Assembly: GCA_902812415.1 (NCBI GenBank)
Contig: CADDZJ010000038.1
Span: forward strand, 1-37,006
DNA: 37,006 nt
Direction of reading: 5' to 3'
DNA from: Acidobacteriota bacterium
GTDB lineage: Bacteria > Acidobacteriota > Terriglobia > UBA7540
Shown in pieces: positions 82-20,798 of this stretch. The translations under genes and the position numbers were made by a program. Positions within the stretch are counted from its first letter, which is position 1. Each line of letters opens with the position of its first letter. The notes beneath the pieces were generated by a model. It worked only from the letters and a program-made list of their open reading frames with translations, was not told the origin of the DNA and ran no database searches.

Positions 82-426
82 AAACTTGACTCAAACACAA
101 CAAGTTTGCCGGGTCTAGGGGTCTAGCCAGCGCGTAGACGGCTATTCCCACACTGGCAATTGGTTTTCCCGCATAAGCCCTCCCTCATAGCGCTGGGTTT
201 AACCGATGTTGAATCCATGTATCGGCAGACTGATTATCCGACGCTTGGCATCAGGCCAAAATACCGAACCGACAGGGAATTTCGACTTGGTAAAGTTGAG
301 TTCAGAAGAAATGGAGCGTCCACCCAGCCGGGAGCTGATACCCTTGATGGAGCTTACGCTACTGCGAGCAATCGAGGATATCAAGTCGCCGCGAGATTAA
401 AATCCGGGAAGGTATAACCGAGGCGG
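82..426. other. gene-free spacer of about 345 bases
   Basis: No convincing gene is seen. Short frames at 160-417 (+), 206-400 (+) and 199-384 (-) overlap one another, lack ribosome-binding sites and have no recognisable domain. Both the left-edge gene (+) and folP (-) end into this spacer, so it is a convergent intergenic region. No clear hairpin followed by a T-run was found. Confidence 0.5.
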
Positions 427-1455: not shown

Positions 1456-1496
1456 TTGCGCTCGTGACGCCGGCAGTCAGGCGAATTCCCTGCCTG

Positions 1497-1511
1497 CCGC
1501 GCCTGGCGCGG
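1497..1511. promoter_or_regulatory. perfect 7-bp inverted repeat in the folP/uvrC divergent spacer
   Basis: CCGCGCC-T-GGCGCGG is a perfect dyad around one central base, inside the 174-bp spacer between divergent folP and uvrC. It could be an operator or simply a GC-rich palindrome. A CATAAT hexamer at 1600-1605 could be the uvrC -10 element, but no good -35 lies at the right distance. No function is claimed. Confidence 0.25.
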
Positions 1512-1629
1512 GACCCAATGTTCCAACAACCGCCGCCGAGATGGCGGCGCGATAAGTGCAGCGCGGGCTGATTTCTGGAAAAACTGCGCCGGCCTAACGC
1601 ATAATAAATCAAGCGAGGCTTGCGACTCC

Positions 1630-3450: not shown

Positions 3451-3476
3451 TTAGGCAAACCGCACCGGGCTATATT

Positions 3477-3504
3477 AATAAGAAGTCTAGCCGGACTATT
3501 TATT
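3477..3504 (+). terminator. AT-rich hairpin downstream of uvrC
   Basis: Arms AATAAGAAGTC and GACTATTTATT around loop TAGCCG pair over 11 positions with one wobble and one mismatch. It starts 26 bases after the uvrC stop. There is no long T-run, so this is at best a weak terminator. Confidence 0.3.
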
Positions 3505-3532
3505 ATAGCTAGCATTTACATATATTTTCTGA

Positions 3533-3560
3533 TTGACTTTATAAGGCTCATCGTCATAAT
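3533..3560 (+). promoter_or_regulatory. sigma70-like promoter for the YtxH genes
   Basis: TTGACT (3533-3538) and CATAAT (3555-3560) are separated by 16 bases, each one mismatch from the housekeeping consensus. They lie in the most AT-rich stretch of the window. The predicted start point is about 25 bases upstream of the first YtxH gene, which has the purine-rich binding site GGGGAGAAAGAGAGG before its ATG. Confidence 0.6.
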
Positions 3561-3591
3561 AAATTTTTGAGGGGAGAAAGAGAGGGTTTAA

Positions 3592-3870
3592 ATGGCTAGA
3601 CAATGTGCAGGTAGTTTCGTGGCATATTTTCTTGCCGGGTTAGGGATTGGGGCCATTGTGGCTCTGCTTTTTGCCCCCCGTAGCGGTGAAGAGACGCGCG
3701 AAATTATCAGCCGTAAGGCGGACGAAGGCCGTGAATATGTAGCCGCCAGAAAAAGAGAGTTGCGTCGCAAGGCGGAAGATGCCGTGACCGAAGCGCGGAG
3801 GAAGCTTGAAGACCTGCAGGACAAGGGTAAGGAGATTGCCTCGCGGATTGGGTTGGATTCCGAATCTTAA
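3592..3870 (+). CDS. YtxH-domain small membrane-associated protein, copy 1
   Basis: This 92-residue protein has one N-terminal hydrophobic segment (about residues 6-26, SFVAYFLAGLGIGAIVALLF) followed by APRSGEETREII, the signature of the YtxH (GvpP-like) family. The remainder is a charged Lys/Glu/Arg-rich helix predicted to form a coiled coil on the cytoplasmic side. YtxH proteins are known mainly as general-stress or envelope-associated proteins without a biochemical activity. It has its own promoter and a purine-rich ribosome-binding site. A paralogue follows at 4137. The name is firm at domain level; the function is unknown. Confidence 0.85.
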   Translation: MARQCAGSFVAYFLAGLGIGAIVALLFAPRSGEETREIISRKADEGREYVAARKRELRRKAEDAVTEARRKLEDLQDKGKEIASRIGLDSES

Positions 3871-4136
3871 TGGCAATGGGAAGGGATGGAGGGATTTCCT
3901 TATTCTGAGCCCCGAAGGATTTCCGCAATTTGGACCGGAAAGGAAATCGAGCTGGCGCTGAAGACGGTCAGCCGTCGGACGTTCTAAAGAGAGCAAAGTT
4001 CGTAAGTCTATGCCGTGATGCCAGCGCGCCACCCAACATTTTAATTCCGCGAGCTTTCGCACGAATTGCTCGGCGGAGGCGGGTCACATCAAAAAGGGGA
4101 TAATCCTGACACAGACAACGTTCGAGGAGGTCAACC

Positions 4137-4442
4137 ATGGGAGAGCATGATAGCGGTGCTTCAAAATTCGCTTATTTTTTGGCGGGCATAGGATTCGGAG
4201 CGGCTCTGGCGCTGCTGTTTGCCCCGCGGACGGGCGAAGAGACTCGAGATCTGATCGGCGCCAAGGCCACGCAAGGCAAAGAGTACGTCACGGCCAAAAG
4301 CAAGGAAATGCGCGAGCAGGCGGAACAGTTTGTTGAAAAGGCCAAAGACATGGTCGCGCAACAGAAGGAACAGCTTTCCGCAGCGCTCGAAGCCGGCAAG
4401 CAGGCCTATCACGAAGAGAAGGCCAAAACTCAGACCCCTTAG
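4137..4442 (+). CDS. YtxH-domain small membrane-associated protein, copy 2
   Basis: This 101-residue paralogue of the gene at 3592 shares YFLAGIGFGAALALLFAPRTGEETRDLI with near identity, then a lysine/glutamate/glutamine-rich amphipathic helix (about residues 45-100). It has a strong ribosome-binding site, GAGGAGG, a few bases before ATG. A 266-base spacer separates it from copy 1, so it may have its own promoter; a GATAAT at about 4098 has no matching -35. Its tail diverges from copy 1 much more than its head, as expected of an older duplication with selection on the membrane segment. Confidence 0.87.
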   Translation: MGEHDSGASKFAYFLAGIGFGAALALLFAPRTGEETRDLIGAKATQGKEYVTAKSKEMREQAEQFVEKAKDMVAQQKEQLSAALEAGKQAYHEEKAKTQTP

Positions 4443-4483
4443 CGCGCGATTGACGGGGCCGCGCTCATGGAAGGAAGGAAATT

Positions 4484-4996
4484 ATGGACCACGGAACTCT
4501 TATCGCCGTGTTCGTGGTGATTGCTGCAATTGCCATTGTGCTGCAACTGCTCATCTTGCTGGGTTTGTATCTGGTGGCGCGCAGAATTCACGGGGAAGTG
4601 AGTGAAACGACCCGCGAGGCAAAGCAGCGCCTGGATGCCGCAGCCCGGGCAATTGCGGCTCCCTTTGCTGAGTCCCGCGAGCAGATCAAGGCTGTGACGC
4701 TCAATGTGGCGGAGGTGAGCCGCATCATTCGTGAGCGGACAAGCTCCGTGGACGACGTGCTTGCAGAGATGATCGAAAGAACCCGTCAGCAGATGCAGCG
4801 GATTGACCAGTTGATTTCAAACCTCGCTGAGAGAGTGGATTCGACGGCGGGCGTGGTGCAGCGCAGCGTCATTGCGCCATTTCAGGAGATTGCGGCGATT
4901 ACAAAGGGGATTCAATGCGCCTTCGACTTCTTCCTCTCGCGCCGTCAGCCGTCAACTGTTCGTGAAGCCACCCAGGATGAAGAGATGTTCATCTGA
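4484..4996 (+). CDS. membrane-anchored coiled-coil protein of unknown function
   Basis: This 170-residue protein has one strongly hydrophobic N-terminal segment (about residues 6-32, all small and aliphatic residues). A long, almost uninterrupted helical region rich in Arg, Glu, Gln and Ala follows to about residue 140, and a short tail ends in EEMFI. The design (one anchor plus a soluble coiled coil) resembles DUF948-type proteins that often sit beside YtxH genes, but no family was firmly recognised. The ribosome-binding site AAGGAAGGAAATT precedes the ATG. It starts 41 bases after YtxH copy 2 and is probably co-transcribed with it. Confidence 0.8.
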   Translation: MDHGTLIAVFVVIAAIAIVLQLLILLGLYLVARRIHGEVSETTREAKQRLDAAARAIAAPFAESREQIKAVTLNVAEVSRIIRERTSSVDDVLAEMIERTRQQMQRIDQLISNLAERVDSTAGVVQRSVIAPFQEIAAITKGIQCAFDFFLSRRQPSTVREATQDEEMFI

Positions 4997-5135
4997 TTTT
5001 GTGGCGTGCCTGGTGTTTATCTGAACGGAAGCATTTCGAGCGACGCTCGATGACCCGTTTGAAAGCTTTGAATGTAGCGCCAGCATCTTGCAGACCGGAA
5101 CCGCCGGGAGGGCGGTGCTGGGTGGATAATCCTCT

Positions 5136-5867
5136 TTGCCGCTTCCTTCTAAAATCATTTCTCCCGCTAACATCCCTGAAACCGCGCTGGCGATTTTCGC
5201 GCGCGCGCCGCTCCCCGGACAATGCAAAACTCGGCTGATCCCTTTGCTAGGATCTCAGGGCGCGGCGGCGTTTCAGCGCGCGTTGCTCGGGGATACCTTG
5301 CGTAAAGTCGCGCCGCTCGGCGGCAAGCTGGCGCTCTGCTTGATGACGGCAGGCTCAGGGTTCAATTTCACAGAGAACGGAGAGCAGGGAATTTCCCGGT
5401 TTACGCTCCTTCGGCAGCGCGGAAGCGATTTAGGCGAGCGGTTGGAGAATGCATTCCGCCTCTTATTGCGAAGGCACGCGCGCGTCCTCATCATCGGCAC
5501 AGACTCGCCGCAACTGACCCGGCAAATCCTACGCCAGGCGATTGGAGAATTGCGCTGGTGCGATGCGGTGCTAGGCCCGTGCCCCGATGGCGGCTATTAT
5601 CTGATCGGGCTGCGGAGAGAAGCGGGCAAGCAGTTAGGGAAAGGGCTGTTGCGCCATATCCGGTGGGGCACAGCGCGCGCATTCGAGGACACTCTGCGAA
5701 ATCTGCTCACCGCGGGCATGGCCTGTTCTCTGCTCGAATCTCTGGAAGATGTGGACCGGCCTGAAGACTTGATGAGGCTCAAACGACGGATGATGAGCGG
5801 CGCTCGCACCCGGCATTGGTCTCCAATGACCTGGCGATTCCTGCGAAAGGGATCACCAGGTTTCTGA
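5136..5867 (+). CDS. DUF2064 / GT-A fold transferase (TIGR04282-like)
   Basis: This 243-residue protein carries the conserved blocks of the DUF2064 family: ARAPLPGQCKTRLIPLLG near residues 22-39 (nucleotide-binding loop), IIGTDSPQL around 125 and AVLGPCPDGGYYLIGL around 145-160. The fold is the GT-A nucleotide-diphospho-sugar transferase type. Some members are assigned to arsenosugar or other glycolipid synthesis; the substrate here cannot be told. The start is TTG at 5136. No ATG is available upstream of the conserved block and no strong ribosome-binding site is visible, so the start is uncertain by a few codons. It precedes the amidase on the same strand with a 75-base gap holding a repeat remnant. 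Confidence 0.82.
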   Translation: MPLPSKIISPANIPETALAIFARAPLPGQCKTRLIPLLGSQGAAAFQRALLGDTLRKVAPLGGKLALCLMTAGSGFNFTENGEQGISRFTLLRQRGSDLGERLENAFRLLLRRHARVLIIGTDSPQLTRQILRQAIGELRWCDAVLGPCPDGGYYLIGLRREAGKQLGKGLLRHIRWGTARAFEDTLRNLLTAGMACSLLESLEDVDRPEDLMRLKRRMMSGARTRHWSPMTWRFLRKGSPGF

Positions 5868-5871
5868 CGCG

Positions 5872-5896
5872 CGGCGCCGGGGACAGCGCCGCTACA
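5872..5896. repeat. degenerate half copy of the twin-hairpin repeat
   Basis: The bases CGGCGCCGGGGACAGCGCCG followed by CTACA match the reverse complement of the first hairpin of the full element at 29359-29477 at 24 of 25 positions. The flank ACGAAAATCATCACAATC resembles its outer arm more loosely. It lies just after the stop of the DUF2064 gene. Confidence 0.6.
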
Positions 5897-5942
5897 ACGA
5901 AAATCATCACAATCAAGGGCGCTCTCCATCGGGAAATCTCAG

Positions 5943-7373
5943 ATGAATGAATTATGTTTTCTTTCAGCGGCGGAGATTGCGGTGCGGATTCGCAGCCGCA
6001 AACTTTCTCCACGGGAGGCAGTCCACGCGCATCTGGAGCGCATCGAAAAGCTGAATCCGCGTCTCAATGCGCTGATTTACGTGGATCGTGACCGTGCTCT
6101 CAAAGCCGCTCAGGAAGCCGAGCGCGCTGTGATGAAGGGCTCACCCCTGGGGCCGCTGCACGGAGTGCCGATCACCGTCAAGAGTTCGGTGGAGGTGGCC
6201 GGTTGGCCCTGGGAGGCTGGGACGCGCCTGCGAGCGGGTCTGCGAGGGACCACAGATGCGCCGTTGGTCGAGCGGCTCAGGCGCGCCGGAGTGATTTTGC
6301 TGGGCAGCACCAACGCCCCTGAATATTTGATGGCCTACGAAACGGATAATCTGCTCTACGGCCGCACCAACAATCCCTGGGACTTGAATCGCACTCCGGG
6401 AGGGTCAAGCGGCGGTGAGTCTGCTGCTATCGCAGCAGGACTTTCGGCAGGCGGTGTGGGGAGCGATGGCGGCGGCTCCATTCGCATTCCGGCGCATTAC
6501 ACGGGCATCTGCGGTCTGAAGCCTACGCCGGGGCGCATTCCCGCGACAGGTCATTTCCCCGCTTCGCTCGGTCCCTTTGCCCTCATCGGCGTTGTTGGCC
6601 CCATGGCCCGGACCGTTCGAGACCTCAAACTCCTTTTTGAAGTGATGGCAGGATATGAGGCGGGCGATCCCTCGTCAGCGCCCGTCGCCTTGCGAAAATT
6701 GCGCGCGGCAGAAGCGCGTCGAATCCGTGTGGGTTGGTTTGAGGATGATGGCTGCGCGCCCCCAACGCGCGAGACGCGCGCCGCCGTGCGTCAGGCTGCA
6801 GAGGCGCTTACGCAGAGTGGTTTTGTGGTTGAGCCTTTCCGGCCCAAAGGCTTGGAGCGCGCTCGACAATTATGGTGGAATATCTTTGGGCGGGCAGGCG
6901 GCTGGATCCTGAACCCGGTGGTCGAGGGACGCGAAGGAAAGTTAAGTCCGATTTTCAAGGAGTTCCGTAGTTTCGTCGCTGCGGAGCCGCCGCTTATTTT
7001 AGACGATCTGATGCAGACGTGGATTGAGCGCGACGAACTTCGCATTCAATTCCTGAGACAGATGGAAAAATACCCCGTCATTCTCTCCCCGGTTTGCGCC
7101 GTGCCTGCTTTCCGCCATGGCGAGCGCGAATGGGTAGTGGACGGGCAGAAGGTGAAGTATCTTGAAGCGATGAGTCATACGCAGGTCTTTAACATTCTCG
7201 GCAATCCGGCGGCGGTTGTGCCGGTGGGGCGCTCGCCGGAAGGGATGCCAATAGGAGTGCAGGTGATCGGCAGGCCCTACGAAGAAGAAACCGTGCTCGC
7301 CATCGCTGCGGAAGTTGAGAAGCGCTGCGGAGGATGGCAGAAGCCGCCAATCGACGAACTGGGAAGCAATTGA
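5943..7373 (+). CDS. amidase signature family hydrolase
   Basis: This enzyme hydrolyses a carboxamide C-N bond. At 476 residues it fits the amidase signature family. The Ser-cisSer-Lys triad is visible: Lys80 in VPITVKSSVE, Ser155 in TPGGSSGGES and nucleophile Ser179 in GSDGGGSIRIPA, with the usual 24-residue spacing between the serines. It closes with FNILGNPAAVVPVG and GVQVIGRPYEEE. It is not GatA: there is no gatB or gatC alongside, and the middle differs. The closest general type is the acetamidase / fatty-acid amide hydrolase-like branch; the substrate is unknown. ATG at 5943 directly precedes the conserved ELCFLSAAEIAVRIRSRKLSPREAV block. It may be transcribed with the rhodanese-like gene 31 bases downstream. 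Confidence 0.9.
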   Translation: MNELCFLSAAEIAVRIRSRKLSPREAVHAHLERIEKLNPRLNALIYVDRDRALKAAQEAERAVMKGSPLGPLHGVPITVKSSVEVAGWPWEAGTRLRAGLRGTTDAPLVERLRRAGVILLGSTNAPEYLMAYETDNLLYGRTNNPWDLNRTPGGSSGGESAAIAAGLSAGGVGSDGGGSIRIPAHYTGICGLKPTPGRIPATGHFPASLGPFALIGVVGPMARTVRDLKLLFEVMAGYEAGDPSSAPVALRKLRAAEARRIRVGWFEDDGCAPPTRETRAAVRQAAEALTQSGFVVEPFRPKGLERARQLWWNIFGRAGGWILNPVVEGREGKLSPIFKEFRSFVAAEPPLILDDLMQTWIERDELRIQFLRQMEKYPVILSPVCAVPAFRHGEREWVVDGQKVKYLEAMSHTQVFNILGNPAAVVPVGRSPEGMPIGVQVIGRPYEEETVLAIAAEVEKRCGGWQKPPIDELGSN

Positions 7374-8695: not shown

Positions 8696-10192
8696 ATGAT
8701 GGCCAGAGTTCATAAAGTTGAAATGCTTCAAGATTTTATCCGAACAGTCCTCATTCTCGGTTTTATGAGTTTCAGCGGTTTGGCGGTGGCGCAAGCTCCG
8801 ATGGCTGCGCCCGGAACGTTGAGCTATGAGATGAGCGTCGCTTCCAGTTCCAGTCCGTCCAGTGGGGCTGGTTCAGCACAAAATCCATTTCTGGGCAGCG
8901 TCCCTGCAGGCAAGGCCACTTCGCAGGTCCTGCCGATTACGCTTAAGGACGCGCTGGAGCGCGGCTTGCGCTATAACCTGGGCATCCTGTTGAGCGAGCA
9001 GACGACTGAAGGCGCGCGAGGCCAGCGTTGGCAGGCTCTAAGCAAGCTGTTGCCGCATCTGACGACCAGCACAGGGGAGGCCCGCCAGGAAATTAACCTT
9101 GAGGCGTTGGGGTTTCCCGCCAACAAGTTTCCCGGCTTTCCGGTCATTGTGGGGCCGTTCAACACGTTTGATGCGCGCGCTTATTTGACCACGCCGATTC
9201 TTGATCTCCAGTCGTTGCGCAAGGAGCGAGCGGCCTCCGAAGATGTTCGCGCGGCGCGCTACAGTTACCAGGATGCCCGCAACATGGTGGTTTTAGTAGT
9301 GGGCAATGCCTATCTGCTCGCGAATGCAGGTGCGGCAAGGGTGCAATCGGCAGAGGCTGAAGTGAATACCGCCCAGGCGCTTTATCAGCAGGCCGTGGAC
9401 CGCTTCCATGCAGGGTTAAGCCCGCAAATCGATATGCTACGCGCCCAGGTGGAGCTGAAATCGCGGCAACAGAGGTTGATTGCGGCGACGAACGATTACG
9501 CCACAGAGAAACTGAATCTTGCCCGCGTCATCGGTCTGCCCACCGACCAGCCGTTTACGCTGGCTACGAAAACTCCGTATGAGCCGCTGGAGGGCCTCAA
9601 TCTGGAGAAGGCGCTCACGGACGCTTATAACAACCGTCCCGACTATAAAGCGGCTCTCGCCCAGGTGCGGGCTGCGGAGGCTCGTCGTCGGGCGGTAGCA
9701 GCCGAGCGATATCCCTCCATCAGCTTTAACGGCAATTTCGGAGACATCGGCCTCACCCCGAGCAATTCTCATGAAACCTTCACGGTCGCGGGAACCTTGA
9801 ATATCCCCATTTTTCAGGGAGGAAAGATTCATGGCGAACTCATTCAGGCTGACGCCCAGCTTAAGCAAACGCGGGAACAATTGGACAATTTAAGGGCACA
9901 AATCGATTATGACGTGCGCACGGCAATGATGAATCTCAGAACCGCTGCGGATCAGGTTAATGTTGCGCGCAGCAATGTGACGCTGGCGGACCAGACTCTG
10001 AGTCAGGCGCGCGACCGCTTTGCGGCAGGCGTGACCGACAATATTGAAGTAGTTGAGGCGCAGGAGGCGGTAGCGAACGCCGATGAGGCGTATATCTCCA
10101 GCCTCTATCAGCATAACCTGGCCAAGGTGGCCCTCGCCCGCGCAGTAGGGATTGCGGAGCAGGCGGTTTTGCAGTATTTGGGAGGAAAATAA
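8696..10192 (+). CDS. TolC-family outer-membrane efflux protein
   Basis: This 498-residue protein has a signal peptide (hydrophobic TVLILGFMSFSGLAVAQA, cleavage near residue 33). Two repeats of the outer-membrane efflux protein domain follow, with long helices containing ITLKDALERGLRYNLGI, FHAGLSPQIDMLRAQVELKSR and the duplicated match RFAAGVTDNIEVVEAQEAVANA. Such proteins form the trimeric channel-tunnel across outer membrane and periplasm. ATG at 8696 follows AAGGA at 8681-8685. The gene for its adaptor starts 4 bases after the stop, its ribosome-binding site lying inside the tail of this gene. It is therefore the first gene of a tripartite efflux operon. Confidence 0.93.
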   Translation: MMARVHKVEMLQDFIRTVLILGFMSFSGLAVAQAPMAAPGTLSYEMSVASSSSPSSGAGSAQNPFLGSVPAGKATSQVLPITLKDALERGLRYNLGILLSEQTTEGARGQRWQALSKLLPHLTTSTGEARQEINLEALGFPANKFPGFPVIVGPFNTFDARAYLTTPILDLQSLRKERAASEDVRAARYSYQDARNMVVLVVGNAYLLANAGAARVQSAEAEVNTAQALYQQAVDRFHAGLSPQIDMLRAQVELKSRQQRLIAATNDYATEKLNLARVIGLPTDQPFTLATKTPYEPLEGLNLEKALTDAYNNRPDYKAALAQVRAAEARRRAVAAERYPSISFNGNFGDIGLTPSNSHETFTVAGTLNIPIFQGGKIHGELIQADAQLKQTREQLDNLRAQIDYDVRTAMMNLRTAADQVNVARSNVTLADQTLSQARDRFAAGVTDNIEVVEAQEAVANADEAYISSLYQHNLAKVALARAVGIAEQAVLQYLGGK

Positions 10193-10195
10193 ATC

Positions 10196-11482
10196 ATGGC
10201 GCAGAAGACTGATTTGGAACAAGAAAGGATCTTGCAGGCTGGACTGGCATCTCCGAGTGACGCAAACGGCGGCGCTTCTGGAGAGAGAGCTTCGGGTCAC
10301 AAGGACCAGGGGACGCCTGCCACAAGGTCCCGGAAGACGTGGCCGATCATCTTGGTGGTGCTGATCCTGATTGTCGGCTCGATCATGGTCTGGCGACACT
10401 ATGCGGCGTGGGTTTCGACCGACGACGCCGAGATCGATGGCCATATTCATCCGATCAGCTCGCGCATCGCGGGGCACGTGATCAAGGTCACCGTCGATAA
10501 CACCCAGTACGTTGAAAAGGGAACGGTGCTGGTGCAGCTTGATCCGACCCTCTATCAGGTTGCGGTGGATCGAGCCAAGGCCCAGTTGGCTGACGCTCAA
10601 GCCACGGCGCAGGCGGCCCAGGTGGGCGTTCCCATCACCTCCATCAACACCATGAGTCAGGTGCATTCAGCGCAGGCGGATGTGGACAGCGCGCAAGCCG
10701 GAATTACGGCTGCTGAAAGGCAGTTTCAAGCCGCGGAGGCCAAGCTCGAAGAAGCGGAAGCCAACAACGTGAAAGCCCAATCGGACTTGAAGCGCTACGC
10801 GCAGCTTGTAGGCAAGAACGAGATTTCGCGCCAGCAATATGATGACGCGGTAGCAGCCGCCAAGACCAGCGCCGCCATGGTGTCGGCCGCTCAGGCTTCT
10901 GCGGCGGCAGCCGAGCAACAGGTCACGCAGGCCCGCAGCCGCCTGGCGCGGGCGAATGCGGAACTTCATTATGCGCAAACGCGACCGCAGCAATTGCGCG
11001 TGATCCGGGCGCGGGCGGAAGCGGCGGCATCCTCTGTGCAGGCGGCGGAGGCGGCGTTACACCAGGCTGAACTCAATCTTCAGTTCACCACCATAGTCGC
11101 GCCGATCAGCGGCATTGTCGGCAACCGCACTGTCGTGGCGGGGCAGAACATTCAGCCGGGGCAGGCGCTCATGGCCATCGTTCCCACCGAAGATATCTGG
11201 GTCACGGCCAACTTCAAGGAGACGCAATTGCAGCACATGCGCTTGGGACAGCCGGTGAAAATCCACGTGGACGCTTATGGACGCGATTACAACGGACATG
11301 TGGTGGGCATCGCCGGCGCTACAGGAGTCCAATTCAGCCTGTTGCCGCCGGAGAACGCAACTGGAAACTATGTGAAGGTTGTGCAACGCGTGCCGGTGCG
11401 CATCGCCATCGACCCGGGCCAGGACCCGCAGCATCTGCTACGGGTGGGAATGTCGGTCGAGCCGAACGTCAAGGTGAACTGA
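10196..11482 (+). CDS. emrA: EmrA/HlyD-family membrane-fusion (adaptor) protein
   Basis: This 428-residue protein has a cytoplasmic N-tail, one membrane segment at about 49-66 (WPIILVVLILIVGSIMVW) and STDDAEIDGHIHPISSRIAGHV starting the biotinyl-lipoyl-like domain. An unusually long Ala/Gln-rich alpha-helical hairpin spans about 125-290. The second lipoyl half follows (IVAPISGIVGNRTVVAGQNIQPGQAL), then the beta-barrel domain (VTANFKETQLQHMRLGQPVKI). It links the inner-membrane transporter to the TolC channel. ATG follows GGGAGGAAAA in the end of the TolC-like gene. The EmrA subtype is inferred from the MFS-type partner at 12436. Confidence 0.94.
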   Translation: MAQKTDLEQERILQAGLASPSDANGGASGERASGHKDQGTPATRSRKTWPIILVVLILIVGSIMVWRHYAAWVSTDDAEIDGHIHPISSRIAGHVIKVTVDNTQYVEKGTVLVQLDPTLYQVAVDRAKAQLADAQATAQAAQVGVPITSINTMSQVHSAQADVDSAQAGITAAERQFQAAEAKLEEAEANNVKAQSDLKRYAQLVGKNEISRQQYDDAVAAAKTSAAMVSAAQASAAAAEQQVTQARSRLARANAELHYAQTRPQQLRVIRARAEAAASSVQAAEAALHQAELNLQFTTIVAPISGIVGNRTVVAGQNIQPGQALMAIVPTEDIWVTANFKETQLQHMRLGQPVKIHVDAYGRDYNGHVVGIAGATGVQFSLLPPENATGNYVKVVQRVPVRIAIDPGQDPQHLLRVGMSVEPNVKVN

Positions 11483-11606
11483 CCGATGTTAAGTTTTGTT
11501 CAAAACTGTCGGGGCATAGGCATCGGGGCGGACGGCGCCCACCCGCAAACGACGGGGCGCGCACCACGCAATGCTCCAACGATCATCGATTGAGAGGAAT
11601 GAATTC

Positions 11607-12248
11607 TTGATTCGCATTATTGCCATCGAGCGGGAATACGGCAGCGGGGGCGCAGCCATCGCGCAGGAACTGGCGGCGCGCCTGGGCTGGAAACTCTGGG
11701 ACCAGGCGCTCACCCAGGAGATTGCCCGGATGGCGCAAGTGGATCAGGCGGAGGTCACACGCCGCGAGGAACGCGTTGACGCTTTGTTCTACCGCCTGGC
11801 CAAGGTTTTCGCGCGCGGCAGTTTTGAACGGAGCCTTCCCGTGAGCGGTCTGGAAGGATTGGATGCGGATCGCATGGTGGAACTGATGCAGCGTGTGATG
11901 GAGCGGGCCGCCTCCGCGGGAAGTTGCGTCATCGTGGGAAGGGGGGCGCCCTATTTTCTACGCGACCGCCCGGATGTGTTCAGCGTTTTTATTTTTGCGC
12001 CTCTCGAAGAAAAACTCCGGCGCGTTAAGGCTCTCGGCAAGAGTGAGAGCGAGGCCATTGAACTGATTTCAGATATTGACCGGGATCGCGCCACTTTCGT
12101 GAAGAAATACTACGGCAAGGAATGGCCCACGCGGCACCTCTATCATCTGATGATCAATTCCAAGGTGGGAGATGACGTGGTGGTGAGAATGATCATGCAC
12201 GAAGTCGCGTTGCTGGATGAGATAAAGCGGCAATCGGGCGCGTCCTGA
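11607..12248 (+). CDS. cytidylate-kinase-like protein inside the efflux operon
   Basis: This protein of 213 residues from the start chosen opens MIRIIAIEREYGSGGAAIAQELAARLG, the P-loop of the cytidylate-kinase-like family (AAA_26). It continues with CVIVGRGAPYFLRDRPDVFSVFIFAPLEEKLRRV and DRDRATFVKKYYGKEW, matching the lid and C-terminal blocks of that family. The family is related to CMP kinase, but most members have no proven nucleotide substrate; true CMP kinase (Cmk) is a different branch. The start is TTG 11607 because GAGAGGA at 11592-11598 lies 8 bases before it and the family motif begins immediately; an ATG 36 bases upstream lacks a binding site. It sits between adaptor and transporter genes, 124 bases from the first and 187 from the second. 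Confidence 0.85.
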   Translation: MIRIIAIEREYGSGGAAIAQELAARLGWKLWDQALTQEIARMAQVDQAEVTRREERVDALFYRLAKVFARGSFERSLPVSGLEGLDADRMVELMQRVMERAASAGSCVIVGRGAPYFLRDRPDVFSVFIFAPLEEKLRRVKALGKSESEAIELISDIDRDRATFVKKYYGKEWPTRHLYHLMINSKVGDDVVVRMIMHEVALLDEIKRQSGAS

Positions 12249-12300
12249 CAGATTGCCAAAACGTTTCGGTGAGCGCTGTGTCATTCCGAATTCGTCACTT

Positions 12301-12325
12301 GTCATCCTGAGCGCAACGAGGAATC
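12301..12325. repeat. dispersed intergenic repeat, GTCATCCTGAGCG type
   Basis: GTCATCCTGAGCGCAACGAG followed by GAATC is one copy of a motif that recurs with variation at 14099-14125, about 24690-24725, about 20845-20875 and about 34006-34100. All copies lie in gene-free DNA. Related repeats are very common in acidobacterial and deltaproteobacterial spacers. Confidence 0.5.
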
Positions 12326-12435
12326 ACTGTATTTTGGCTCAGGGAGATCCACGCGGAATCTCACCAGCGCTCGCGAAAGCGCCGGCGCAACTTGCATGGT
12401 CACGATCAGGGTAGTTCTCAACCAGTGAGGATCGC

Positions 12436-14025
12436 TTGAACGGACAGACAGCAACAGCTAGAGCGGCTTGGAAACCCGACATCAATCCCTGGATCATCGC
12501 CTGCACGGTGATGCTCGCGACCTTCATGGAAGTGCTGGACACCAGCATTGCCAACGTCGCCCTGCCTCATATTGCCGGCAGTCTTTCGGCGAGCGTGGAT
12601 GAGAGCACCTGGGTGCTTACCTCCTATCTGGTCTCGAACGCCATCGTGCTGCCCCTGACAGGATGGTTTTCCACGCTTTTTGGCCGCAAACGCTTTTATA
12701 TGGCCTGCGTGGCCATCTTCACGGTCAGTTCGTTTCTCTGCGGCCTTGCTCCGAATCTGGGAGCGCTCGTGATCCTGCGCGTGATTCAGGGCGCAGGCGG
12801 CGGCGGCTTGCAGCCGGTTTCGCAGGCGATTCTGGTGGAAAGCTTCGAGCAGGAACAGCAGGGCATGGCGATGGCCGTCTATGGCATGGGCGTGGTCGTG
12901 GCTCCCATCATCGGTCCGACGCTCGGCGGATGGATCACGGATAACTATTCCTGGCGCTGGATCTTCTTCATCAACATTCCCGTCGGCATTCTGGCGCTGC
13001 TGATGACTTCGACGCTGATCAAAGATCCGCCTTACCTCGTTCGCAAAGGATTGAAGGACGGGCTCAAGATCGATTTCGTTGGCCTGGGCCTGCTCAGCGT
13101 GGGCCTGGGTTTCCTCCAGGTGATGCTTGACAAGGGCCAGCGCGACGACTGGTTTAGCTCTCATTTCATTGTGGCGTGCGCGATCCTGGCGATCATCGGC
13201 CTGGTCGGAGTTGGGATCTGGGAGCTGAGGCAGAAGGAGCCCATCATTGATCTGCGTCTGTTGAAGGACAAGAATTTTTCAGTCTCCACATTCACCATGT
13301 TTGCGCTGGGAGTGGTGCTCTACGGAACCACTGTGCTGCTGCCAATCCTCGTGCAGACGCTCATGGGTTACACGGCGGAATGGAGCGGCCTGGTGCTTTC
13401 GCCGGGCGCTGTGCTGACCATGTTCACCATGCCTTTAGTGGGCTGGCTGCTCGGCCGCTTTGAGGCAAGATGGCTGGTGGTTTGGGGTCTGATCGTGCTC
13501 TCGGTCGGCATGTTTGAGCTGGCGCACATTAATCTGACCGTCAGTTTCTGGACGCTAGTGCTCATCTGGTGCATCTCGCGCTTCGGGCTGGGATTTCTCT
13601 TTGTCCCGATCAATGTGATGGCCTTCGCCTTCGTCCCGCGGGAAAAGACCAACAATGCGACGGGAATCATCAACGTGGCGCGCAATATCGGAGGCAGCGT
13701 GGGAATCTCCCTGGTGACGACGCTTCAGGCCCGCCGCGCCCAGGTGCATCAGAATATTCTGGTGGCCCATCTGACGCCCTACAATCACACCTATCAGTCC
13801 ATGTTGGATGGAGCCGCGCGGATGCTCGAATCAGCAGGTTCCAACGCGACGCAGGCCCTCGAGCAGGCTCACGCCTTGCTCTACAGCCAACTGGTGCGTC
13901 AGGCCTCAATACTCTCCTTTGTCGACGTCTTCTGGCTGTTGGCGATGACCTGCCTGGGGATGATTCCGTTGATGTTTCTGATGAAGAAGATGCGGCCACA
14001 GAAGGGCCGCGTCCCGGTGCACTAA
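12436..14025 (+). CDS. emrB: EmrB/QacA-type MFS multidrug transporter (DHA2, 14 TM)
   Basis: This 529-residue, highly hydrophobic protein has the DHA2 pattern. The first TM carries MLATFMEVLDTSIANVALPHIAGSLSASVDESTWVLTSYLV (motif D1). The loop after TM2 reads GWFSTLFGRKRFYM (motif A). Motif C is GMGVVVAPIIGPTLGGWI, and about 14 membrane segments follow. It exports hydrophobic drugs or metabolites by proton antiport, passing substrate through the EmrA-like adaptor and TolC-like channel encoded just upstream. The start is TTG at 12436 with GTGAGGATC before it. The 187-base upstream gap holds a dispersed repeat, so it may be an operon gene or have a separate promoter. No dedicated TetR or MarR regulator gene is present. 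Confidence 0.95.
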   Translation: MNGQTATARAAWKPDINPWIIACTVMLATFMEVLDTSIANVALPHIAGSLSASVDESTWVLTSYLVSNAIVLPLTGWFSTLFGRKRFYMACVAIFTVSSFLCGLAPNLGALVILRVIQGAGGGGLQPVSQAILVESFEQEQQGMAMAVYGMGVVVAPIIGPTLGGWITDNYSWRWIFFINIPVGILALLMTSTLIKDPPYLVRKGLKDGLKIDFVGLGLLSVGLGFLQVMLDKGQRDDWFSSHFIVACAILAIIGLVGVGIWELRQKEPIIDLRLLKDKNFSVSTFTMFALGVVLYGTTVLLPILVQTLMGYTAEWSGLVLSPGAVLTMFTMPLVGWLLGRFEARWLVVWGLIVLSVGMFELAHINLTVSFWTLVLIWCISRFGLGFLFVPINVMAFAFVPREKTNNATGIINVARNIGGSVGISLVTTLQARRAQVHQNILVAHLTPYNHTYQSMLDGAARMLESAGSNATQALEQAHALLYSQLVRQASILSFVDVFWLLAMTCLGMIPLMFLMKKMRPQKGRVPVH

Positions 14026-14657: not shown

Positions 14658-14733
14658 GGATTCCCGCCTGCGCGAGAATGACGACATTTTTAGTCTGGGA
14701 GCGAAATAGTCATTCCCGCGCAGGTGGGAATCC
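14658..14733. repeat. REP-like inverted repeat (GGATTCCCGC...GCGGGAATCC type)
   Basis: Two 25-base arms (14658-14682 and 14709-14733) are inverted copies differing at 2 positions, around a 26-base loop. A single related unit lies at 34253-34275. This is the widespread GTCATTCCCGCG...GGGAATCC palindromic repeat class. It occupies the 305-base spacer 14584-14888, which otherwise holds nothing recognisable. Confidence 0.75.
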
Positions 14734-14888
14734 ACCGGCGATGCGTCAACTCACTTCTTTCCCGCACACGCTCCCTTCCTTTCAAAAATCAATGGCATTT
14801 ACTGACCCGAATCGTGCATAATGCGGTCATTCAGCCCTGCCGTAGTCACAGGGCAGTTTTTTCCCAAACATACAGGATGAGGCTGATT

Positions 14889-16238
14889 ATGCGCATCCGG
14901 CAATTTCATGACCCGAGGCTTTCGATCTGGCAGTCTGCGGTGGATGAGGTGCTGGCGAAAAAATTGGTGGCGGCACAACAGAAGACTCCTGCCGCCGCCC
15001 CGGCCGCCGTCACGACGGCCGCACGGCCAGATACTTCCCATCCGGCGGTGCAGGAAGCCGCCTCCTATTGCGCGGCCATCGATGATGACAAGTCTCTTTC
15101 GGAACTTACATCGGGGCCACCGACGGCAGCCGGGGTGGCGCACACATTGAGCTATTGTTCAGTTGCAGCCATGAAATTGGCTGAGGCCATTCTGACGCAC
15201 AATCAGCAGGACTGTCAGCGCTATCGGGATGAACTCGGCAAATTCACGGACTGTGATCCGCTCTACGCCGAGGCAGCCGAAAAATATGCGGAATATTTTA
15301 TCGCTCAGTGCAAGAAAATCCCTTATCGAGTCCATCAGAATCTGGAAGATTTTGTCATCGACGGCAAGCTGCCGCCCAAGGCGCGCGTGGCCATTCTAGG
15401 CGACTGGGGCACTGGCCAGGCTATCGCCAGGAAAGTGCTGCAACAGATCGCGGGGAAGGCGCCGGATGTGGTGATTCACCTGGGGGATATCTACTACTCC
15501 GGAACCGATTTTGAAGTGCAGACTTACTTCTATGGACCCTGGACGCAGATTTTAGATCTGACGCATCGTGGCATTCCCACGTTCACGCTGGCCGGTAACC
15601 ACGATATGTACTCCGGAGGCGTAGCCTATTACAACCTCATTGACCGGCTGGGGCAGCCTGCCAGCTATTTCTGCCTGCGGAACGATGATTGGCAGTTCCT
15701 GGCCATGGACACGGGCCTGCACGACTCCAACCCCACAGCGGCAGGAACGACGGCAACGTATCTCGAAGATACAGAGCTTGCGTGGCATCAGGATAAAATC
15801 AATAAGGCTGGCAATCGCCGGACCATTTTGCTTTCCCACCATCAGCCCTTTACCGCCAACGAAGCGATTGACGGTCGCGAGATCAACCTGCGACTCTATC
15901 CCCAGGTTTCCGGCTTTTTCCCTCACGCCGCGCTCTGGCTTTGGGGACATGAACATAATTTTGTGATTTACGAGCCGTATATGGGCCTTGAACGCGGGCG
16001 GTGCATAGGCCATGCGGCATTTCCGGTGGGCATTGACGAGATCGCCTCACAACCGAAATTTCCGAACGTTCCGGTCAAAAGAACGGATGAAAACGGCAAG
16101 AGCCTGACGCTGGGTGTGAACGGCGGGCTTTACAACCATGGTTACGTCGTGATGGACTTGGACGGTCCTTCGGCAAAAGTTTATTATTTCCAGGACAGTG
16201 ACGAGAACACGCCGCTTTTTCAGGAGACAATTCCGTAA
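14889..16238 (+). CDS. purple-acid-phosphatase-like metallophosphoesterase
   Basis: This protein of about 449 residues has a helical N-terminal third without recognised domain (through about residue 150), then a calcineurin-like metallophosphoesterase domain. The metal ligands appear in order: GDWGTG (Asp172), HLGDIYYSGT, LAGNHDMYSGG, LSHHQPF and LWGHEHN. GDWG at motif 1 is the form found in purple acid / ACP5-like phosphatases rather than the DxH form. There is no signal peptide, so it is probably cytoplasmic. The start is ATG 14889, six bases after GATGAGG; ATG 14877 is also possible. An open frame extends to 14724 but runs through the REP-like repeat and is not believed. It precedes the giant GMC gene by 129 bases on the same strand. 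Confidence 0.87.
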   Translation: MRIRQFHDPRLSIWQSAVDEVLAKKLVAAQQKTPAAAPAAVTTAARPDTSHPAVQEAASYCAAIDDDKSLSELTSGPPTAAGVAHTLSYCSVAAMKLAEAILTHNQQDCQRYRDELGKFTDCDPLYAEAAEKYAEYFIAQCKKIPYRVHQNLEDFVIDGKLPPKARVAILGDWGTGQAIARKVLQQIAGKAPDVVIHLGDIYYSGTDFEVQTYFYGPWTQILDLTHRGIPTFTLAGNHDMYSGGVAYYNLIDRLGQPASYFCLRNDDWQFLAMDTGLHDSNPTAAGTTATYLEDTELAWHQDKINKAGNRRTILLSHHQPFTANEAIDGREINLRLYPQVSGFFPHAALWLWGHEHNFVIYEPYMGLERGRCIGHAAFPVGIDEIASQPKFPNVPVKRTDENGKSLTLGVNGGLYNHGYVVMDLDGPSAKVYYFQDSDENTPLFQETIP

Positions 16239-16367: not shown

Positions 16368-19300
16368 ATGCTGGCAAAGGATTGGGATCAGCGAAAGACA
16401 AAATATGATGTGGTGATTGTCGGCTCGGGATATGGCGGCGCGATCACGGCGGCCCGAATTTCCAGCGCGCCCCTGAATCCCAGGAAATCCGTATGCCTCC
16501 TGGAGCGAGGGAGGGAATGGCCGGTCGGCCAATTCCCCGATACTCTAACGAGGGCCGTGGAGCAGGTGCGCAACACGGTGACGAATCCCACCGGCCTTTA
16601 TGATTTTCCAGTCTTTGAGGAAATCGCCGTGATGAAGGGTTGCGGACTGGGAGGAACTTCGCTCGTCAATGCCAACGTGGCGATCATTCCGGATGATGAT
16701 GTCTTTCTTCAATCCAATTGGCCGCGCAGCATCAATCGGCCTCTGCTCCAGCCTTATTACGACACGGCGCTGAAGGCGCTTGCCTCACGGCCCCATCCGC
16801 GCGCCAAGGAGTTGCTGAAAGTGCAGGCGCTCGAACGGCGGGCCAAAGAAATCGGCCTGGAGGCTTTCGGCCTCAACATCAACGTCAATTTCGATATCGA
16901 CGGATTGAATTCCTACGGCGTGCTGCAGAAACCGTGCATCGATTGCGGTGATTGTGTCACGGGCTGCAACGTGGGCGCCAAGAATACCCTCTATATGAAC
17001 TACCTTCCGATGGCCCACGCGAACGGGACGGACATCTTCACGCAAACGCAGGTTGATTGGCTGGAAAAGCTGCCTGACGGTGGTTGGAGAATTCATGGGA
17101 GGCGGCACGAGCGCTTCTTCCCAGAGTCGTTCACTTTGGATGCCGGCTGCGTAATTCTGGCTGCGGGCTCGCTGGGAAGCCCGGAAATCCTGCTGCGTTC
17201 GGAGGTTCACGGCCTTTCGCTTTCTCCGATGGCGGGAACGCACTTCAATGGAAATGGGGACTTTTTTGGTATTGCTTTCAACGGCGAATATCGAACCAAT
17301 GTGCTGGGCTTCGGGAATCACCCGGACAGCCCCTGGCGGCCCTATGCGCCTGGGCCTACGATTGTCGGAGGCATCCGCTACAACAAAGACCTCCCCATAG
17401 GCCGGCGTATGACGATTGAAGATCTATCCTTTCCCAGCGCTTACATCAGCGCGGCGATGATCGCTTTCGGGGCGATGGGCGGCCAGCCCACCGTGGCGGG
17501 CCACGAATCCGAAGAAAAAGCCCGGCGCGCAAAAGATAATCCCTTCGATCCCTACCAGCCCGACAATGCCATGAACCATACAATGTTCTATCTCGTGGTC
17601 TCCGAAGACAACGCCAAAGGAACCATGCGTTTGAACACCAATTTTCTGGATCCGCACGGAAGGCTCGAGATCGACTGGGACGATGCTGGAAACGAACCCA
17701 TCTTCACGCTGATTAATGAAGAGCTTCGCCGTCACGCGCGAGCGTTGGAGGCCGAGTTTATCGAAAACCCCTGGTGGCATTTCCTGAATCTGCACCGGCT
17801 GATTACGGCCCACCCCCTGGGAGGACTGCCGCTGGGCGAGGACTACCTCCAAGGCGCTGTCGATCCCTTCGGGCGGGTCTTTGATGGAAAAGGCTCAGTG
17901 CACGATGGCCTCTTTGTCGCGGATGGTTCCCTCATCCCCTGCGCTTTGGGAGTGAATCCGTTGCTTACCATCTCCGCGCTTTCCGAGCGGATTGCGGAAA
18001 AAATGATTCGCAAATTTCAGGGTGAGCCTTATCCGGCTCCCCCAGCTTCCGTAAGCGTGCATCTTATCGATCCTCTCGATGCACCAAACGACGATGAAGC
18101 AGACCTTGAGCGCGTCTTCACACGCGTGGAAACGCAGAGCGTCGATACGATGGTCAATACTGGCGAGTGGTCCGTTGATCTGGAAAAGAAGCTTATCCGG
18201 AATGACATCGCCTGGAAGGGATTTTTCCCTCGGGGACACGTATTGAACCGTATTTCGACAGCGCTTCGGGAAGGGTTTAGGAAGAAGTTCACGCGGGGAG
18301 CTTCCGGCATCACGGGCATCACCAGCGATTCCGACGGGCATATCAACGTGGCGAACACTTTGGAGGAAATCACGCTGGAGAAGCCCTCCGGAACGCTCGA
18401 AGAGGGCAAGTACATTCTGCTGCGATATACCGGAGCGCCCTGGTCGGCGTTTTACGACATCTTCAAGGTGATCAATCACGATTTGCTGATCGGACGGGTT
18501 TACATCGGCGAATATCCTCATGGCGCGCGGATGTTCACGTTCCCGATGACACGCGTCTACGCCCTTGAGGATATGACGGCCTCCGATCATCAAGTTCTTT
18601 ATCAGCGCTCGCCTGCAGCCACGCCCTCTCAGCTTGCCGGCGTCTGGGAAATGAGAGCGGTTGCCAACGCGATGGATACCGGTGTGATCGCCTGGCTCAG
18701 GTTTGATTTGAAACCCGATGGGAGATTGGAAGCTCGCTACCGCTTTCTTGGCCTTTTCGAGGGGCTAGTCGAGCCGGTCTTCGGCAAAGACCATTTCCAG
18801 CTCTACGATTTCACACCCTTTCACGATGAAATTCGTTGCGTCGCGCCGGACTTTATGGTGGGACGATACACTACCCATGCCCCTTCGCTCCTTAGCGACC
18901 TCTTCGGTCCGGACTCGCTGGGACTCTTTCATATTGATCGCGCGCCCGGCGGGGCGGAACAAATCTCTTTCTATTACACCCTGACGCGCAGCAAGGCGGA
19001 GGATATGCCCGCCTCCGGCTTTCTTGAGCCGCTTCTGGATATTCAACTGCCGGATGGGCTCAGTATGACCTTCGATGAGCGGATGGTGGGCTATTACTTC
19101 CCCGGTCTTTCGCTGCCCTTCAACCGCCAGGGCGATCAGGAAATCGAAGCTCGCGTACCGGCTTTCGGTAAGCCAGCGGGAGCGGTGGATTGCTATTTTC
19201 AAATGCGCGTCACCATCCGAGACGTCAATGAATTTCTGATGAGTCCGGAGCATGAAGCCGGACTGAGCGGCACGATTCATTTCGGCGACTTTCAGGGGCA

Positions 19301-20798
19301 GGGAGAGACTACTTTCATTGTCGATTCCCTCCGCAGCCGGTTTAATTATCTGCGGGTGGATCCGGGGACCCAGGAAGCTGAAATTCTCTATCACATTTAT
19401 TTTCAGGACTCGCAAAAGAAGGATTATCTCTTCTTTGCGCGCAAGTATATGGAGCGCGATCCGCTCCAGTCCATGGCTGGGGTGCGCGAGATCCTTCATG
19501 ATTACACCACGGCTTACTGCCACCTGACCGAGACAGAATCCGGTAAGGAGCTGGGCATGGCGTTGCTGAAGTTCAAAACCTTCGAGGACTTACCGGCCGT
19601 CGAGAGCTTTGCCGAATTTCTCAAATCATATCAGGTGACGGGAACGGAGAGTTCGTGGCTCAAAGCCCAGGCGCTCCTGCGCTTTCTGGCTTTCACCAAT
19701 CAGTTCGTCATCCGCGAGTATGAGCCTCTCAGCGTGGCCGCGGATATGACAGCGGACGAAGTGCGGGAAGAGGTCTTGCGAGGGGCGACCACAGCGGATG
19801 AATTCAGCACACGGCCCACAACCGAATTGCAGCAGATTCTGCGCGAAACGCCGACTCTTCCGCTTGAAACGCTCCTGAACCGCGGCGGCGTGACCATCGA
19901 TTACGCCAACCGGCGCATCTGGCGCGATTCCTTCTGGAAAGGATCTTTTTCCAAAGATTCACTCCTCGGCTGGGAAGAGCGCGTCCGCAATGCTGCTTTA
20001 GGTGAAGGCGCATCGCAAACGGCCTCGGTTTATACCGGCGGTAGCTTCTGGAAAAGGTTTGATTCCATTCAGGACGGCGAAGCCGTGGGTTATGTTGTGA
20101 ATTATGAGCTTCATTGCCTGCCCGGCAAGCCCCTCGTGAAACAGGTAAAATACCCGGACGACAACCGCAAGTATTTCCGCGCCGGTGACGATATCCTGCT
20201 ACTCACCTACCAGAATGAGCCTTACCGCAAGGTCTACGATACGATCAAAGCCATCGACAAGGACAACTGCATCGGCGTGATGCATCTTGGAGAATTTCCA
20301 AACGGCGTCGAGTTCGCCACGTTTGTGATGGCTCGCAACAATTATCCCTTTGAAAAGATGTCGGCGCCTGACCATCAGGCTATTTTTAACGGCGATCACG
20401 TTCATGTGCCTTCGCCGAACGAAATTGCCGGCGCATGGGAGGGCCACCTGATCTTCCTCACACGACCGGATGTGAGCTTGTTAAATCAGTTGGATCCTGT
20501 AGCATTCCGGCTGAAGTTTTTGCCTGCCTCGAATGGTGTGGCCGGACATTACCAGTTCGGGATTCTCTCGGGAAGCATGCAGGTGCAGTTCACCGATGAG
20601 TTTGTGGAGCTGCTGGATTTCACAAAATTCCACGATGAGATCCGCATGATTGACCATCAGACGATGATTGGCAAGTGGGTGTCGCCGCAGGCACCCGTCT
20701 GGCTGAATAATTCGCTGGTGCGTAAAGCGCTGGAAGGGTATCTTGAGCCGGGCAAGGACCGGCTGGCGTTTTATTATCTCCTGACGCGCGCATCATAG
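16368..20798 (+). CDS. giant GMC-type FAD oxidoreductase with a duplicated C-terminal module
   Basis: 1476 residues. Residues 1-555 are a GMC (cholesterol/choline oxidase-like) FAD enzyme: YDVVIVGSGYGGAITAARIS (Gly19-Gly24 loop), Glu47, GLGGTSLVNANV, the cysteine motif CIDCGDCVTGCNVGAKNTL and the active-site pair His482 (AHPLGG) and Asn530 (GVNPLLTI). The remaining 920 residues are not part of usual GMC enzymes. About 603-876 and about 1175-1476 are two copies of one module, shown by FYDIFKVINHDLLIGRVYIGEYPHG against VYDTIKAIDKDNCIGVMHLGEFPNG, LAGVWEMR against IAGAWEGH, and DFTPFHDEIR against DFTKFHDEIR. Between them lies a different domain (about 877-1172) resembling one found after GMC domains in other large fusions. 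AAGGAGG precedes ATG. No signal peptide or membrane segment. The substrate is unknown; a sterol or other lipid alcohol is a guess. Confidence 0.9.
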   Translation: MLAKDWDQRKTKYDVVIVGSGYGGAITAARISSAPLNPRKSVCLLERGREWPVGQFPDTLTRAVEQVRNTVTNPTGLYDFPVFEEIAVMKGCGLGGTSLVNANVAIIPDDDVFLQSNWPRSINRPLLQPYYDTALKALASRPHPRAKELLKVQALERRAKEIGLEAFGLNINVNFDIDGLNSYGVLQKPCIDCGDCVTGCNVGAKNTLYMNYLPMAHANGTDIFTQTQVDWLEKLPDGGWRIHGRRHERFFPESFTLDAGCVILAAGSLGSPEILLRSEVHGLSLSPMAGTHFNGNGDFFGIAFNGEYRTNVLGFGNHPDSPWRPYAPGPTIVGGIRYNKDLPIGRRMTIEDLSFPSAYISAAMIAFGAMGGQPTVAGHESEEKARRAKDNPFDPYQPDNAMNHTMFYLVVSEDNAKGTMRLNTNFLDPHGRLEIDWDDAGNEPIFTLINEELRRHARALEAEFIENPWWHFLNLHRLITAHPLGGLPLGEDYLQGAVDPFGRVFDGKGSVHDGLFVADGSLIPCALGVNPLLTISALSERIAEKMIRKFQGEPYPAPPASVSVHLIDPLDAPNDDEADLERVFTRVETQSVDTMVNTGEWSVDLEKKLIRNDIAWKGFFPRGHVLNRISTALREGFRKKFTRGASGITGITSDSDGHINVANTLEEITLEKPSGTLEEGKYILLRYTGAPWSAFYDIFKVINHDLLIGRVYIGEYPHGARMFTFPMTRVYALEDMTASDHQVLYQRSPAATPSQLAGVWEMRAVANAMDTGVIAWLRFDLKPDGRLEARYRFLGLFEGLVEPVFGKDHFQLYDFTPFHDEIRCVAPDFMVGRYTTHAPSLLSDLFGPDSLGLFHIDRAPGGAEQISFYYTLTRSKAEDMPASGFLEPLLDIQLPDGLSMTFDERMVGYYFPGLSLPFNRQGDQEIEARVPAFGKPAGAVDCYFQMRVTIRDVNEFLMSPEHEAGLSGTIHFGDFQGQGETTFIVDSLRSRFNYLRVDPGTQEAEILYHIYFQDSQKKDYLFFARKYMERDPLQSMAGVREILHDYTTAYCHLTETESGKELGMALLKFKTFEDLPAVESFAEFLKSYQVTGTESSWLKAQALLRFLAFTNQFVIREYEPLSVAADMTADEVREEVLRGATTADEFSTRPTTELQQILRETPTLPLETLLNRGGVTIDYANRRIWRDSFWKGSFSKDSLLGWEERVRNAALGEGASQTASVYTGGSFWKRFDSIQDGEAVGYVVNYELHCLPGKPLVKQVKYPDDNRKYFRAGDDILLLTYQNEPYRKVYDTIKAIDKDNCIGVMHLGEFPNGVEFATFVMARNNYPFEKMSAPDHQAIFNGDHVHVPSPNEIAGAWEGHLIFLTRPDVSLLNQLDPVAFRLKFLPASNGVAGHYQFGILSGSMQVQFTDEFVELLDFTKFHDEIRMIDHQTMIGKWVSPQAPVWLNNSLVRKALEGYLEPGKDRLAFYYLLTRAS

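Follow-up and report, generated by a model that had tools for sequence, protein, structure and literature searches.

Cholesterol oxidases (3cnj and 1b4v; NCBIfam model NF058674), the 3Fe-4S glucose and fructose dehydrogenases, and fusions of a GMC enzyme, a middle domain, and an alpha/beta hydrolase are the described systems closest to the GMC flavoenzyme considered here. In Burkholderia cepacia glucose dehydrogenase alpha, three loop cysteines, Cys212, Cys218, and Cys222, ligate a 3Fe-4S cluster (PMC6719666). The present enzyme is encoded in a 37,006-nucleotide stretch from an Acidobacteriota bacterium (contig CADDZJ010000038.1 of assembly GCA_902812415.1; this whole stretch is called the window), where a single reading frame joins a GMC domain to two diverged copies, A and B, of one module, with a distinct middle domain between them. 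Modules A and B are homologous, and the fusion is a genuine, family-wide bacterial enzyme and not an assembly artefact. The function tentatively preferred is that the modules bind hydrophobic alcohols or aldehydes or present them at the flavin site.

The fusion protein and its GMC domain

The features of the fusion gene are as follows.

16368-20798, forward strand: fusion open reading frame (ORF), one unbroken frame of 1,476 codons
16368-18062, forward, residues 1-565: GMC flavoenzyme domain of the cholesterol-oxidase branch (Pfam; NCBIfam, sub-threshold; structure match 3cnj)
16422-16439, forward, residues 19-24: dinucleotide-binding motif GSGYGG for flavin adenine dinucleotide (FAD), with conservation of ≥90% among 41 relatives
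16935-16967, forward: four-cysteine ferredoxin-type loop CIDCGDCVTGC (C190, C193, C196, and C200), candidate iron-sulfur (Fe-S) site, cysteines invariant in the 41 relatives
17811-17813, forward: catalytic His482 (HPLGG, 482), invariant in the 41 relatives
17955-17957, forward: catalytic Asn530 (NPLLT, 530), invariant in the 41 relatives
18099-18572, forward, residues 578-735: N-lobe of module A (578-878), predicted lipocalin-like barrel, GXWXG/DUF4334-like (model match 4mve)
18579-19001, forward, residues 738-878: C-lobe of module A, DFTPFHDEIR at 814-823 (weak model matches 5yvf and 2o62)
19005-19757, forward, residues 880-1130 (approximate): middle domain, predicted mixed beta-barrel/helix (alignment with an Azospirillum GMC-middle-hydrolase protein; model match)
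19818-20357, forward, residues 1151-1330: N-lobe of module B (1151-1476) (homology to module A; lipocalin model matches)
20358-20795, forward, residues 1331-1476: C-lobe of module B, DFTKFHDEIR at 1417, the motif being eroded in several relatives

Full-length orthologues (56-77% identity) with equal length and domain order occur in other genomes, and the order is kept in 17-18 named loci, which rules out the explanation that the long ORF arose by misassembly or by accidental read-through across distinct genes. Two relatives (L013 and L014), whose GMC and A-middle parts lie in different ORFs, might be cited in its favor, but it retains practically no credence. No signal peptide is evident by eye at the N terminus (MLAKDWDQRKTKYDVVIVGSGYGG), and the enzyme is probably cytosolic.

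Pfam profiles GMC_oxred_N (residues 85-280, 43.9 bits) and GMC_oxred_C (residues 416-538, 44.3 bits) score above their gathering cut-offs (23 and 24.6, respectively), and the GxGxxG FAD motif (G19-G24) and the active-site residues H482 and N530 lie where the sequence-only reading had placed them in a complete GMC enzyme. The nearest NCBIfam model, cholesterol oxidase NF058674, gives 143.6 bits, far below its curated cut-off of 850. A structure model of the GMC-A-middle part (predicted local distance difference test, pLDDT, 80.7; predicted template modeling score, pTM, 0.72) matches cholesterol oxidase 3cnj (Z 35.9, 2.9 Å, 451 residues) and the Fe-S GMC dehydrogenases, i.e., fructose dehydrogenase and B. 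cepacia glucose dehydrogenase (Z 31-34). The cholesterol oxidases 3cnj and 1b4v share the GMC fold, the His/Asn pair, and the HPLGG and NP.LT motifs with the window enzyme but are just 24-25% identical to it and lack the four-cysteine loop, and the window protein is ~900 residues longer.

The loop cysteines have ferredoxin-like spacing (Cx2Cx2Cx3C), and their absence from aligned cholesterol oxidases contrasts with their presence in a paralogue elsewhere in the same genome and in the GMC enzyme of a genome that encodes the parts separately (G456; see below). The loop is therefore a trait of this enzyme branch and not of the fusion. The cysteine loop of B. cepacia glucose dehydrogenase has a comparable position along the polypeptide, although the spacing of Cys212, Cys218, and Cys222 differs from that of the window enzyme (PMC6719666). 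An Fe-S center at C190/C193/C196/C200 is a plausible candidate and, if real, would point to a dehydrogenase rather than an oxidase.

Modules A and B

The sequence-only reading had proposed one module, duplicated around a distinct middle domain, behind the GMC enzyme, and this was borne out. Module A is 28% identical to module B over 330 residues (BLASTP E value of 1e-30), family profiles of A and B built from relatives align with an hhalign probability of 100 (E value of 2.9e-44), and the middle region has no comparable match to either module. In an AlphaFold2 model of A-middle-B (pLDDT 79; pTM 0.46), the secondary-structure state is equal at 74% of aligned A/B positions, against 27-38% in shifted alignments. 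Modules A and B are homologous and their folds agree, and the differing folds that would have undermined the proposal were not seen; only the limits first proposed (about 603-876 and 1175-1476) proved slightly too narrow, the copies spanning residues 578-878 and 1151-1476. All B copies form one group in the tree and all A copies another, set apart by a branch of ~1.5 changes per column. The duplication is therefore old, and a recent tandem duplication is ruled out.

Each module is predicted to consist of two lobes, of which at least the first is lipocalin-like. The A N-lobe (model residues 1-157) matches 4mve, Tcur_1030 of Thermomonospora curvata, with a Z of 11.2 (3.0 Å, 123 of 148 residues, 20% identity), above the tool's background of Z 7-8. 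The structure 4mve was placed in GXWXG/DUF4334 with a composed DUF4334-like probe sequence that matches PF14231 and PF14232 and, with an E value of 5e-30, also 4mve. Module A also matches lipocalins, retinol-binding proteins, and fatty-acid-binding proteins at background level (Z 5-7), and strand order in the A-middle-B model is barrel-like. The B N-lobe (model residues 578-756) matches lipocalins 3g7x (Z 6.3) and 1iiu (Z 5.4). The A C-lobe (model residues 164-303), of low confidence at model residues 221-245, resembles the two-lobe lipocalin-like proteins BFA1 (5yvf, Z 5.7) and DUF3598 (2o62, Z 5.6) at 17-18% identity, but these scores are in the tool's common range and no oxidoreductase fusion of those proteins was seen here.

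Among aligned segments of the N-lobe (FYDIFKVINHDLLIGR), the C-lobe (FTPFHDEIRCVAPDFMVGR), and 4mve (QPIIDHFRRVNDDMVVG), the N-lobe/4mve similarity was reached or exceeded by 2 of 200 shuffles, a modest support that supersedes a smaller first test in which it exceeded all 100 shuffles. No shuffle out of 200 scored as high as C-lobe/4mve, and 2 of 100 column shuffles were as high as N-lobe/C-lobe, again modest support. The motifs listed in the sequence-only reading are present, but YD-K-I---IG and FHDEIR are probably a single motif occurring once per lobe, and AGxWE is a G-x-W motif that opens the second lobe.

GXWXG/DUF4334 proteins (PF14231 and PF14232; 4mve) share with the module the predicted fold of the A N-lobe, a W-x-G near the start, and the pattern YD...V..D..+G..G.P...F...R, but the module scores below the Pfam cut-off and, unlike them, has two lobes and is joined to a GMC enzyme. 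We know of no function for DUF4334. Sub-threshold DUF4334/GXWXG matches were found in 7 of 18 module members (best, ~12 bits; E value of 0.1-0.2; cut-off, 25), and no PDB sequence matched the module family profile at an E value of ≤10. Neither the module nor the middle domain has a match above the cut-off in Pfam, NCBIfam, or PDB sequences, and the possibility that the module is an already known domain with an assigned role is ruled out on this basis. A DUF4334/GXWXG search of Acidobacteriota genomes gave no match, but its controls were equally silent and the result is uninformative; a search meant to extend to Actinobacteria by way of locus L086 probably remained within Acidobacteriota. The viral fold library gave no meaningful match, the defense-system library gave none, and the literature on DUF4334, 4mve, DUF3598, and GMC-lipocalin fusions yielded nothing useful.

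Either a binding or a second catalytic domain, possibly for a poorly soluble substrate, had been suggested from the sequence. The predicted lipocalin-like fold suits binding. In the catalytic alternative, the fusion would be a multistep enzyme whose barrels isomerize, hydrate, or cyclize the GMC product, as allene oxide cyclase and carotenoid hydratase-like proteins are lipocalin-like barrels with catalysis. The polar motifs of module A (YD..K, DH, and HDEIR) are conserved, H242, D243, E244, and R246 being invariant in 11 orthologues, and the putative AttH structure 2ich was matched, but weakly (Z 5.8) and on the middle domain. HDEIR is, however, largely lost in several B copies and in two free-standing A-type modules (L035 and L036); an equivalent motif occurs in DUF4334, where no activity is known; and in barrels, motifs of this kind can have a structural role. 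Second active sites in the modules are thus unlikely.

The middle domain and GMC-middle-hydrolase fusions

The middle domain differs from the modules, as claimed at the outset, but is not unique to this layout. A paralogue in the same genome (L002:1465-4611; G000:C52) has the order GMC-middle-alpha/beta hydrolase, its middle domain having no Pfam match in the scans made here, and the same layout occurs in several phyla on plasmids of Azospirillum, Leptospira, Rhizobium, Persicobacter, and Bernardetia. The Azospirillum middle region aligns with that of the window protein at an E value of 2.5e-9. The middle-domain model matches 4u8u_O (Z 9.2) and, within background, a catalase-like barrel (Z ~5.7).

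These fusions (Azospirillum oryzae WP_149201188.1 and G000:C52) share the GMC branch (40-43% identity) and the middle domain with the window protein but have neither module, the alpha/beta hydrolase forming their C-terminal end instead. Because it is common to such widespread fusions, the middle domain is a general companion of the GMC branch. Module A lies between the GMC and middle domains, and module B occupies the place that the hydrolase has in the other fusions.

Distribution and separated parts

Of 396 genomes drawn from across the phylum, 6 contained the module. Scanning named genomes with module A as the query gave 52 loci, of which 50 are labelled as Acidobacteriota or lineages within it, one as Armatimonadota, and one as Acidimicrobiia; a search of plasmids for the module found none. 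The ORFs of the 52 loci encode GMC-A-middle (29 ORFs), GMC-A-middle-B (17 ORFs), or, in a few cases, truncated or variant forms. Module A is kept in every fusion found, partly by construction given the query, and module B is optional. In a tree of the A-middle part, B switches between present and absent at least six times if only well-supported branches are counted and 11 times in the best tree; repeated loss of B is probable.

Two loci are irregular. The one labelled Acidimicrobiia (Actinomycetota; L086) nests inside Acidobacteriota in both trees and probably comes from a mislabelled or mixed metagenome-assembled genome (MAG). In another MAG (L090:2766-7032), the fusion gene is split into several overlapping frames through sequencing error or decay.

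Free-standing modules, which the sequence-only reading suggested looking for, were found in three Acidobacteriota genomes, namely, G216 (A-type, divergent from a GMC gene), G414 (A-type, with no GMC gene nearby), and G456 (B-type), and in an Armatimonadota genome (L095), where no GMC gene was seen nearby. In two Acidobacteriota genomes, the module thus has a separate GMC gene as its neighbor. The module as a whole is old and has moved between gene contexts. The G456 locus (L040:253-6181) consists of separate neighboring genes.

253-1737, reverse strand: aldehyde dehydrogenase
1798-2463, forward strand: middle domain
within 2497-3618, reverse strand: module B
3502-5079, forward strand: GMC enzyme carrying CVHCGDCYLGC and HPLGG
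5096-6181, reverse strand: alpha/beta hydrolase

In G010, the GMC part and the A-middle part are encoded by two ORFs lying next to each other. Because the parts are fused in some genomes and neighbors in others, there is good evidence that they work together. Free-standing Acidobacteriota copies nest within fused groups on long branches, a placement that fits either fusion or fission.

The modules could alternatively be scaffolds that mediate oligomerization or hold the hydrolase, phosphoesterase, or electron acceptor and bind no small ligand. The repeated change of the B state would suit an accessory that can be dispensed with, the model of GMC-A-middle has a fairly compact shape (pTM 0.72), and the parts can occur as separate neighboring proteins. 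Nothing specific to a scaffold was found, however; A is retained in all fusions while its partners vary (with the same reservation about the query), and the module fold class is mostly ligand binding. A pure scaffold is accordingly conceivable but doubtful.

Proposed function

The preferred reading, held with a little less than even confidence, is that the protein is an FAD-dependent alcohol oxidase or dehydrogenase whose barrels bind a poorly soluble alcohol or aldehyde and present it to the flavin site, with no second active site. The alpha/beta hydrolase or a neighboring metallophosphoesterase would free an alcohol from its ester, the lipocalin-like barrels would hold or present this alcohol, and it would be oxidized at His482/Asn530 on FAD. 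Electrons would then pass to oxygen or, through the possible Fe-S center, to another acceptor, and aldehyde dehydrogenase may act next in some organisms. The GMC active site, the 4mve match, the homology of A and B, the split-gene loci, the lack of an evident signal peptide, and the enrichment of metallophosphoesterase genes (see below) count in favor of this reading.

Several points weigh against it. Apart from 4mve, structure matches of the modules do not rise above the background, the A-middle-B model is weak in the second lobe and in how its domains are arranged (pTM 0.46), and DUF4334 sequence similarity is sub-threshold and exceeds shuffled controls by only a modest margin. Other lipocalin-like barrels are enzymes or pure scaffolds, and the ligand, substrate, and electron acceptor of the enzyme are all putative. 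A more specific version, in which the barrels pass a hydrophobic alcohol to an Fe-S GMC dehydrogenase in a self-contained relay, so that binding, transfer, and oxidation would occur in one cytosolic chain and the module would be a new substrate-carrier family that also exists as free proteins, is rather improbable.

As far as the searched libraries show, the ~300-residue module represents an undescribed domain family, absent from Pfam and NCBIfam, and the fusion gives a known enzyme class a new layout, with a function proposed from sequence and models. The lead to its fold is two lobes, the first GXWXG/DUF4334-like, and the module is tied to GMC enzymes by both fusion and neighborhood. DUF4334-type barrels thereby gain a testable functional context as partners of flavin-dependent alcohol oxidation, and members of this enzyme branch able to use hydrophobic alcohols would be attractive for biocatalysis.

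Gene neighborhood

Directly upstream of the fusion gene lies one gene relevant to the proposed pathway.

14724-16238, forward strand: metallophosphoesterase gene, 504 amino acids (PF00149, E value of 2.6e-16)

A member of the metallophosphoesterase superfamily occurs near the fusion in 14 of the 52 loci, compared with ~0.8 expected from genome density (9 such genes in the 4.84-Mb genome of the window, over 431 kb of flank), although the loci are related, so that the comparison does not amount to a formal test. In G027, metallophosphoesterase, GMC-A-middle, and GMC-middle-hydrolase genes are consecutive on one strand. On the Azospirillum oryzae plasmid (L096:6110-11390), a metallophosphoesterase gene lies 34 bp before the GMC-middle-hydrolase gene, but BLAST detects no similarity between its product and the metallophosphoesterase of the window, and the pairing is therefore only a parallel.

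Farther upstream, a multidrug-efflux-like cluster (8696-14025, forward strand) encodes an outer-membrane-efflux-like protein (by eye), an HlyD-type membrane fusion protein, and a major facilitator superfamily transporter. An ORF inside this cluster (11571-12248) is, by eye, cytidylate-kinase-like.

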